This document shows, one piece after another, positions 26,939 through 29,656 of a stretch of DNA of 50,938 bases. The position numbers were made by a program, and so were the translations under genes. Position 1 is the stretch's first letter. Each line of letters begins with the position of its first letter. The notes under the pieces were generated by a model. That model worked only from the letters and a program-made list of their open reading frames with translations. It was not told where the DNA came from and searched no databases. The stretch is from Myxococcota bacterium (GTDB taxonomy: Bacteria; Myxococcota_A; UBA796; UBA9615; JAKLKC01). The stretch spans positions 1 through 50,938 of the forward strand of contig JAKLKC010000050.1 of assembly GCA_023150875.1 (NCBI GenBank), in the 5' to 3' direction.

Positions 26939-29656
26939 GTGATCCCAGGTCCGGCCCGCACGCTGCAATTCCTGGCCGGGCTCCTCGCCTGGACCCTCGT
27001 CGCGTTGCCCGCGCAGGCGAAGGACCGCGTCCTGTACGAGCTCGACGCCCGCCTCTCTCCGGAGGGGGATCGCGTGGACGGGGACCTCGACGTGGTGTTC
27101 ACCAACGGCGCGGGGGCCCCCGTCGACCGCCTGGTCCTGCTCCTCTACGGGCGCAGGTTCATCAGCCCCGTCCCGGGCCTCAGCGACATCACCTGGGACC
27201 GGGTCTATCCGAGGGGGTTCGACCGGGGGGACCTGGAGCTGCTGGACGCCTGGTCCGGCGGCGAGATGCTGCCACCGGCGGTGGCCGTGCCCGGATCGAT
27301 GCTCCAGGGTGGCGCCATGGGAGAGGGCACGGTGGTGGTCCAGCCCCTCGCCGGGCCCCTGGCCCCCGGCGACACCGTGCGGTTGGCGTTGCGTTTCCGC
27401 GCCGCCGTGCCCCGGCGGTTCGGCACCTTCGGGACCTACCGCGACCAGACGACCCTGAGCGGGGGGTGGTATCCCTACGTCGCCGACCGCCACCCGGATG
27501 GGGACTGGGCGGTGGACGCCCCCGCGCCGGTGGCCCGCTGGCGGGCGGCGGTCCTGCCGCCCCCGGGATGGAGGACCGTGCTCAACGGTGTGGTCCACGA
27601 GCCCGGCGTTCCGGCCCGCTACGAGGGGACGGCACGCCACCTCTCCCTGGTGACGGGCCGCCGCCTCCAGGCGACGGAGCGCCGGACCCCCGCGGGGCCC
27701 TACGTCTACTGCTCCGCGGGCGCCCCCCCCTCCCGCTCGGAGTGGCGGGACCTCGACGCCACGCTGGGAGCCACCCTGGGGCACATGGACGAGGTCGGCG
27801 CTCCCCGGCCCGCCGCTCCCCCCGTCCTGGTGGAGGTCCCCCTGCGCGTCCGCCTCGTGGAGCTCGCCGAGGGCATGGTCCTGGTCACCGACCGCCTCTA
27901 CCACAGTGTTCCCCTCCCCGAGCGGTGGGAGGACGGGTACGTGGCCCGGGCGGTCATGGCCGAGCGGCTGCGGCCGTTCACGGCGCGCTTGGAGCGCGAG
28001 GTCGACGCCCCCGACGTCGCCGACGGCATCGCGTGGTGGCTCCTCCCCGGCTACCTGAAGAGGCGCTTCCCGAAGCGGCTCACGGTGGTGGACATCCTCC
28101 AGCCCTTCGGCGCGATCCCAGACATCGACCGGATGCTCCAGACGCCGGCATTTCCCTTCTACGACGAGTACTTCGCCAATCCCTACGCCTTCGACCCCCT
28201 CCGAGACGACGTCTCGCGGTGGCACCGCGCCGACATGGGGCCGAGGGTGCTCTTCGGCAAGCTCGCCGCCCGGACCGGCATCGCCTCGATGCGCGGGGCG
28301 GTGGGCGCCTACGTCCGCTCCCTGGGGGAGGCCGTCCGCGGCCTGCCGTGGCTGGTCCTGCTGCGTCAGCGGACCGGGGTGGACGCGGCCGGGTTGTGGT
28401 CGGCGTACGCCCGGGCCCACCCGGGCGTCGACTTCTCGGTCCAGCTCCGCCGGCTCCCGGGGCTTGACGCCCAGGGGCGGCGGGGAGTCGAGATCACCGC
28501 GCGGCGGGACCAGCTCTGGGGGGACCCCGACTCCCCCGAGCGTGTCGGTGTGCGGGTGGACTTCCTGGGGCGGCCGCCGGGTCGTGGGCGCTCCTACCGC
28601 CTGTCCTGGGACAGCGCCGGCGACGGATCGGAGCGCGCGGTGCGGCTGCCGGCGGACGGCCCCGTCGCCTTCGCGAAGGTCGACGCCGCCGAGTCGTTGC
28701 TCGAGGTGGACGCCGAGGGGCGCCCCCTGAAGTCGAACAACCGGGTCCCGACGGGCCTCCGGGCCTCCCTGCTGGCCGGCGTGCTGTCCTTGGACCTCGC
28801 CACCGGGGACATCGACGCCTTCGCGGGGGTGGCGGTGAGGCGGGACCGGGACAGCCGCCACCAGTTCTTCGCGCAGCTCTTCCACGATCCCTCGTCGCTC
28901 GTGGGCCTCGGGATCGGCTACAGCTTCTACTTCGGCGAGCAGGTCGACGGGGTGTTCCGGCGCAACCGCCTCGGGATCTCGGTGGACGCCGCCCTGCTGG
29001 ACCCGGCCTACGCCGTCGTCCACAGCACCCCCGTCTCCGTCGGCGCGGCCCTGAGCTATCGTTTCGACAGCCGGCGGGCCACCCTCTTCCCCACCCGGGG
29101 CTTCCGGGCGCGGGCGTCGGTGTTCGGGGGGTACGAGGTCTCCCGGGGAGGGCCCGCGCTGGGCGAGTACGGGGACTACATCGGAGTCGACCTGGAGGCG
29201 CAGGCCCTCGCGCCCCTGAGCCGCGACCACGTGATCGGGATCCAGGTCAAGGCGGGGCTCATGACGGCGACCCTCCAGCACCGGCTCTTCTCTCTCGGGG
29301 GCGCGTCCGACCTCAGGGGCCTGCCGGCGGGTTCCTCCCTGGGGCCGGGGAAGGTCTTCCTGGGCGCCGAGTGGCGGCACGTCTTCGAGAGGGACTGGGA
29401 CGTCCCCCTGCCCCTGGCGCGCCTCCGGGGGGTGCAGGGGGCCCTCTTCGTCGAGTCGGGTTGGGTGGGGAGGGATCCCCGCTACCTCGAGGAGTGGCGG
29501 GTGGGCTTCGGATACGGGCTCCGCTTCTACCTGGACTTCCTCGGCGTCCTGCCCGGCGTGACCGGCTTCGACGTCGCCTTCAGCCCCGACGCCCCCGTCG
29601 GGAACCTGCTGCCCCTGCCGATGCAGGTCTACTTCGTCGGCGGACAGTCGTTCTGA
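26939..29656 (+). CDS. Outer-membrane fusion: M1-aminopeptidase-like domain + Omp85/BamA-like barrel
   Basis: 905 aa from GTG 26939, which puts a clean signal peptide at residues 1-27 (FLAGLLAWTLVALPAQA/KD); ATG 26828 would add 37 residues. Residues about 28-520 resemble the N-terminal and middle parts of M1 aminopeptidases (YELDARLSPEGDRVDGDLDV, LLLYGRRF, GGWYPYV, VLVTDRLYHSVPLPER), but no HEXXH zinc motif is present. From about 600 to the end is an Omp85-superfamily surface-antigen barrel (DPSSLVGLGIGYSFYFGE, FPTRGFRARASV, LFSLGGASDLRGL, VGFGYGLRFYLDF) ending in an aromatic residue, F. No POTRA repeats are seen. Function unknown; a secretion or surface-anchoring role is an inference. Confidence 0.78.
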   Translation: MIPGPARTLQFLAGLLAWTLVALPAQAKDRVLYELDARLSPEGDRVDGDLDVVFTNGAGAPVDRLVLLLYGRRFISPVPGLSDITWDRVYPRGFDRGDLELLDAWSGGEMLPPAVAVPGSMLQGGAMGEGTVVVQPLAGPLAPGDTVRLALRFRAAVPRRFGTFGTYRDQTTLSGGWYPYVADRHPDGDWAVDAPAPVARWRAAVLPPPGWRTVLNGVVHEPGVPARYEGTARHLSLVTGRRLQATERRTPAGPYVYCSAGAPPSRSEWRDLDATLGATLGHMDEVGAPRPAAPPVLVEVPLRVRLVELAEGMVLVTDRLYHSVPLPERWEDGYVARAVMAERLRPFTARLEREVDAPDVADGIAWWLLPGYLKRRFPKRLTVVDILQPFGAIPDIDRMLQTPAFPFYDEYFANPYAFDPLRDDVSRWHRADMGPRVLFGKLAARTGIASMRGAVGAYVRSLGEAVRGLPWLVLLRQRTGVDAAGLWSAYARAHPGVDFSVQLRRLPGLDAQGRRGVEITARRDQLWGDPDSPERVGVRVDFLGRPPGRGRSYRLSWDSAGDGSERAVRLPADGPVAFAKVDAAESLLEVDAEGRPLKSNNRVPTGLRASLLAGVLSLDLATGDIDAFAGVAVRRDRDSRHQFFAQLFHDPSSLVGLGIGYSFYFGEQVDGVFRRNRLGISVDAALLDPAYAVVHSTPVSVGAALSYRFDSRRATLFPTRGFRARASVFGGYEVSRGGPALGEYGDYIGVDLEAQALAPLSRDHVIGIQVKAGLMTATLQHRLFSLGGASDLRGLPAGSSLGPGKVFLGAEWRHVFERDWDVPLPLARLRGVQGALFVESGWVGRDPRYLEEWRVGFGYGLRFYLDFLGVLPGVTGFDVAFSPDAPVGNLLPLPMQVYFVGGQSF

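Follow-up and report, generated by a model that had tools for sequence, protein, structure and literature searches.

Organization of the locus and distribution of the family

The window, i.e. the whole stretch of 50,938 nucleotides analysed here (contig JAKLKC010000050.1 of a Myxococcota bacterium, assembly GCA_023150875.1), contains a gene, placed correctly in the sequence-only reading, for a protein that we call the pseudo-M1 Omp85 protein, and this gene is followed by those of two lipoproteins (Table 1). The gene is present as a single copy in the source genome (6.9 Mb in 180 contigs) and starts with GTG without an obvious ribosome-binding site; this start is plausible because a signal peptide comes right after it.

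Table 1 Positions of the pseudo-M1 Omp85 gene, the features of its product, and the neighbouring and comparison genes
Feature	Position	Strand	Basis
Pseudo-M1 Omp85 protein, whole gene, 905 aa	26939..29656	+	Open reading frame
Signal peptide, residues 1-27 (..LVALPAQA), no lipobox	26939..27019	+	Translation; helix 5-21 in model
M1-type N-terminal β-saddle, residues 29-249	27023..27685	+	Model, Foldseek, profile-profile
Degenerate M1 catalytic-type domain without HEXXH, residues 256-493	27704..28417	+	Model, Foldseek, profile-profile
Helix replacing the HEXXH helix, residues 331-345 (EDGYVARAVMAERLR)	27929..27973	+	Model, profile-profile
Asp362, in the alignment column of the third zinc-ligand Glu (M1 enzymes)	28022..28024	+	Profile-profile alignment
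Ig-like β-sandwich (M1 domain III type) at the expected POTRA site, residues 496-582	28424..28684	+	Model, profile-profile
Omp85-type barrel, residues 608-905	28760..29653	+	PF01103, model
L6-type motif GGASDLRGL, residues 787-795	29297..29323	+	Family alignment
Glu-Trp-Arg, residues 811-813	29369..29377	+	Family alignment
NlpC/P60 (CHAP) lipoprotein, 192 aa	29663..30241	+	Pfam, alignment, genome survey
NHL β-propeller lipoprotein, 555 aa	30297..31964	+	Pfam, gene maps
Gluzincin-PD40-Omp85 protein	L154:1748-4849 (G000 contig C91, about 59247-62348)	+	Read from sequence
c1 in the source genome (L139)	G000:C174:12606-13487		
c1, examples elsewhere	L033:8100-8960; L118:3650-4513		
2062-residue protein with MopE motifs	L034:13617-19802		

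Relatives of the protein were gathered from its order, class and phylum. A related-locus search with the single window protein gave no matches, and the same search with an alignment returned five close relatives. At E values up to 1e-10, the family profile gave matches in 103 of the phylum's 379 genomes; a small number of the lowest-scoring ones cover the barrel alone and may represent other Omp85 proteins. In one relative (L124, on contig C10 of G051), the pseudo-M1 Omp85 gene is immediately followed by an open frame of ~1100 amino acids that matches the M1 model PF01433.

The N-terminal half has an M1 aminopeptidase fold

The N-terminal half, described as M1-like in the sequence-only reading, had no match in single-sequence Pfam, NCBIfam or PDB searches, so that its assignment rests on profiles and fold. 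PF01433 did not match the window protein over the cut-off and, when searched against the source genome, matched three other genes, the pseudo-M1 Omp85 gene not being among them. A family alignment of 47 sequences was compared, profile to profile, with 15 M1 enzymes of the source genome and its class that carry HEXXH; residues 29-593 aligned with M1 positions 100-592 with a probability of 97.5% and an E value of 5.1e-12, keeping the domain order from the β-saddle through to the Ig-like domain. As controls, a reversed M1 profile gave E values of 0.27-0.34, unrelated profiles 0.05-0.5, and the barrel half alone against the M1 profile 0.6. All 47 sequences were required for a match over the full length; family profiles of 27 and of 6 sequences covered just the final part of the catalytic domain plus the Ig domain.

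The fold was examined in an AlphaFold2 model of the full chain, built from a shallow alignment of six sequences (the window protein and the five close relatives) and of moderate confidence (mean pLDDT 61), which shows an M1-like arm consisting of a β-saddle (residues 31-249), a mixed domain (256-493) and a six-stranded β-sandwich (496-582), followed by the strands of the barrel (608-902). Among the 50 best Foldseek matches listed for the PDB, all were M1 aminopeptidases, with E values of 1e-15 to 6e-13, and the two best matches in a fold search of BFVD, a viral library, were an M1-like and an M61 protein. The protein thus shares with M1 aminopeptidases such as ERAP1, IRAP, the tricorn factor F3 and the Deinococcus M1 enzyme the β-saddle, the fold of the catalytic domain and the Ig-like domain, and the family N-terminal half is colinear with M1 enzymes across 470 columns at 16% identity; unlike them, it lacks the HEXXH-x18-E zinc site and is fused to an outer-membrane barrel.

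Loss of the zinc site

The predicted loss of the HEXXH...E zinc site was borne out well beyond the window, as HEXXH was absent from the window protein and from all 46 relatives that have the N-terminal half (from the order, the class and 20 distant genomes), and an intact site did not appear in any of them. Two class relatives, L011 and L017, are barrel-only fragments, which is why 46 relatives inform this count, and the sole HEXXH match, at L006, is not in the gene itself but ahead of it, where the open frame begins. The M1 segment WLNEGFA aligns with DVADGIA in the window protein, with Asp362 at the Glu position; in other members this third-ligand column holds mostly Asp, Ala, Gly, His or Glu, and the columns beside it are kept (Trp in 33/47, Ala in 37/47). 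The GxMEN exopeptidase motif of M1 enzymes was also absent from the translation on inspection.

Other residues of the domain are conserved: Asp318 and Arg303 are invariant in the family, and position 331, in the helix that replaces the HEXXH helix, is occupied by His in 44 of 47 members, whereas the window protein has Glu there; the register of this helix relative to HEXXH is uncertain. As the zinc site is absent, the protein is not classed as an M1 peptidase, although its fold is that of M1. An ancestor with an intact zinc site already fused to the barrel was also sought: no family barrel is present at the M1 loci L036-L067, which comprise the top M1 matches and 1.5 kb on either side.

An Omp85-type barrel without POTRA domains

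For the C-terminal half, the proposed Omp85-type barrel was recovered both by Pfam and in the model. PF01103 matched residues 705-866 of the single protein with an E value of 8.3e-6 and 26 bits against a cut-off of 24 (28.6 bits when the genome was searched), the NCBIfam BamA models gave weak matches across the same residues, and 10 of the 27 aligned family members, the window protein included, matched PF01103. The best match of the family profile among PDB sequences was 9ccg (E 8.9e-6), in the barrel half. About 14-15 barrel strands can be counted in the moderate-confidence model, the criterion for the Omp85 superfamily being 16.

The motifs of the barrel are largely kept, among them the GG...LRG stretch of L6. 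The L6 motif, (V/L)RG(F/Y), reads DLRGL in the window protein, a degenerate form in which the final aromatic residue is replaced by Leu; its Arg is present in 39 and its Gly in 27 of the 47 sequences. In the remaining 20, Gly794 is replaced by Ala, Ser or Cys, and judging from this substitution insertase function may be altered in those members. Beyond L6, the Glu of the Glu-Trp-Arg segment is found in 46/47 members and the Arg in 47/47, and a C-terminal aromatic residue is conserved in the family barrel.

No POTRA domain was matched by Pfam at E values up to 1 in the window protein or the aligned members, nor was one seen in the predicted secondary structure, where the segment ahead of the barrel is all β in the model. 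The repeats which the sequence-only reading had predicted to be missing from the N-terminal half did not appear. Taken together, it is very probable that the protein is an Omp85-superfamily barrel with a degenerate M1 aminopeptidase arm in place of the POTRA domains.

Comparison with known Omp85 proteins

The window protein resembles BamA and TamA in its C-terminal Omp85 barrel, the (V/L)RG region of L6, the C-terminal aromatic residue and the signal peptide, but differs from BamA, TamA and TpsB in having no POTRA domains and in its M1-like N-terminal arm. The source genome encodes three further Omp85 proteins (L151, L152 and L153) with 3-5 POTRA matches each, which indicates that general assembly does not need the pseudo-M1 Omp85 protein.

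Ten Omp85/TpsB subfamilies have been described, those without POTRA domains including WD40, patatin, 'metallo' and noNterm (Heinz and Lithgow 2014, PMC4104836). Patatin-Omp85 (PlpD), WD40-Omp85, 'Metallo'-Omp85 and noNterm are like the present protein in that no POTRA precedes the barrel, which has another N-terminal domain or stands alone, but an M1-like domain is found in none of the ten as presented in the main text of that paper; neither 'peptidase' nor 'aminopeptidase' occurs in that text, and its 'metalloprotease' domain is PF00149. No M1-Omp85 protein was found in the open-access literature, a scope that leaves aside subscription papers and preprints. The protein is therefore a new variant in the Omp85 superfamily, outside the ten subfamilies of that main text.

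A further combination of this kind was found at L154 (Table 1), whose product has a gluzincin-like N-terminal domain with intact HEYAH and WLTEGLATY, a PD40 β-propeller and an Omp85-type barrel scoring 22.5 bits with PF01103, slightly below the cut-off. It thus joins an Omp85-type barrel to a gluzincin-type N-terminal domain as the window protein does, but its active-site motif is intact, it carries the PD40 propeller, and it is missed by the family and M1 profiles. The WD40-Omp85 class of 2014 was described without a peptidase domain (PMC4104836).

Conserved neighbours of the family gene

The two lipoproteins downstream had been suggested as partners or clients, and a survey of neighbours in other Myxococcota upheld this in part. 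Gene maps of 45 loci gave two recurrent neighbours, both of which were then counted in 70 genomes. One is the CHAP lipoprotein, with Cys49, His120 and His137 invariant in 13 aligned members, which lies downstream within 1.5 kb in 18/56 and within 5 kb in 25/56 of the order and class genomes having both genes; it is nearly absent from the distant family-bearing genomes (3/25). On these counts it is an occasional conserved neighbour, and as the main partner it was demoted. The NHL protein was found beside the family gene in the window and in one relative (L033) among the mapped loci. In one relative (L034), the gene after that of the CHAP lipoprotein encodes a protein of 2062 residues that has 23 metal-binding motifs of the MopE type and matches the proprotein convertase P-domain twice.

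The other recurrent neighbour, c1, is a single-copy protein of ~290 residues with an RKGLP motif, for which no Pfam family was found and whose last residues show a hydrophobic alternation as in an outer-membrane β-signal; a model from two sequences (pLDDT 37) was uninformative. It is the strongest conserved neighbour of the family gene: among the 61 order and class genomes with both, 56 have it upstream at a distance of no more than 1.5 kb. The genes of 52 of these pairs share a strand (median gap 28 bp, eight overlapping) and those of four are divergent, so that the linkage within the class is operon-like. This neighbour is absent from the window: in the source genome c1 is on another contig, unlinked to the window gene (Table 1), and in the 25 distant family-bearing genomes it is present in every one and never adjacent.

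Across the phylum, c1 occurs in 246/379 genomes and in 98 of the 103 that bear the family (Fisher p 2e-16, ignoring the relatedness of the genomes). As many as 148 genomes have c1 without a family protein, which makes the association one-sided: c1 is not generally in need of the family protein, and its strict dependence on the pseudo-M1 Omp85 protein is ruled out. Possibly c1 is a core outer-membrane protein of Myxococcota. In addition, at L142 (G008), L141 (G002) and L140 (G012), c1 and the CHAP lipoprotein are direct neighbours or separated by a single gene that is not a family member, and may form a pair of their own.

Proposed role

In Omp85 assembly and secretion proteins the substrate arm is usually made of POTRA domains, the N-terminal arms of Omp85 proteins are periplasmic, and the clefts of M1 enzymes bind peptide ends. 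From the analogy to POTRA arms and this property of M1 clefts, we consider the M1-like arm most likely to be a periplasmic docking module. Its pseudo-peptidase cleft would lie in the periplasm and bind polypeptide without cutting it, either the end or an extended stretch of an outer-membrane protein, for which c1, as the best candidate client or partner, is the simplest choice. The arm would then pass the bound polypeptide to the barrel, which would work alongside the general BamA as an insertase or translocase of dedicated function, and the CHAP lipoprotein, where nearby, may open the peptidoglycan locally. To this explanation as a whole, comprising the architecture, the periplasmic peptide-binding arm and a dedicated insertase or translocase, most simply for c1, we assign a probability of roughly 40%. 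Its more specific form, a phylum-wide Omp85 subfamily in which the dead M1 domain is the substrate arm and the barrel is dedicated to inserting or translocating the co-operonic, single-copy c1, is doubtful. The lack of adjacency in the distant genomes and the source genome, and the genomes that have c1 alone, speak against the explanation as a whole.

The tight linkage in the class also fits a reading in which the protein forms a stable outer-membrane complex with c1, such as a channel, envelope scaffold or sensor, where the M1-like arm is structural or ligand-binding and the barrel no longer inserts proteins. The loss of the L6 glycine in 20/47 members and the ability of c1 to assemble without the family protein in other lineages are consistent with such a complex, but the L6 region and Glu811-x-Arg813 remain highly conserved in the barrel, and on balance we think it unlikely.

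It is rather improbable that the barrel instead exports its own M1-like domain to the surface as a non-catalytic adhesin or peptide binder, in the manner of type Vd secretion. There is a precedent in the patatin-Omp85 protein PlpD, a non-POTRA Omp85 protein that delivers its enzyme domain to the surface (PMC4104836), and as myxobacteria are predators, surface binding modules would be plausible; yet only ~25 residues (583-607) join the barrel in the model to a folded arm of ~560 residues, and an operon-like link to c1 would not be foreseen. Finally, it is very improbable that the protein is a still-active hydrolase whose unusual site, with or without metal, consists of other conserved residues of the domain, such as His331, Asp318 and Arg303, as there is no HEXXH, the third-ligand Glu is not conserved, and a His331-based site would be broken by the Glu of the window protein.

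If the docking and insertase reading is true, the arm of an Omp85 protein would be exchangeable for a fold evolved to bind peptide ends. With c1 the family also provides a candidate client or partner that is open to testing, its gene being a close neighbour in dozens of genomes, and the family bears on the question of what a periplasmic arm must do for a working Omp85 barrel.
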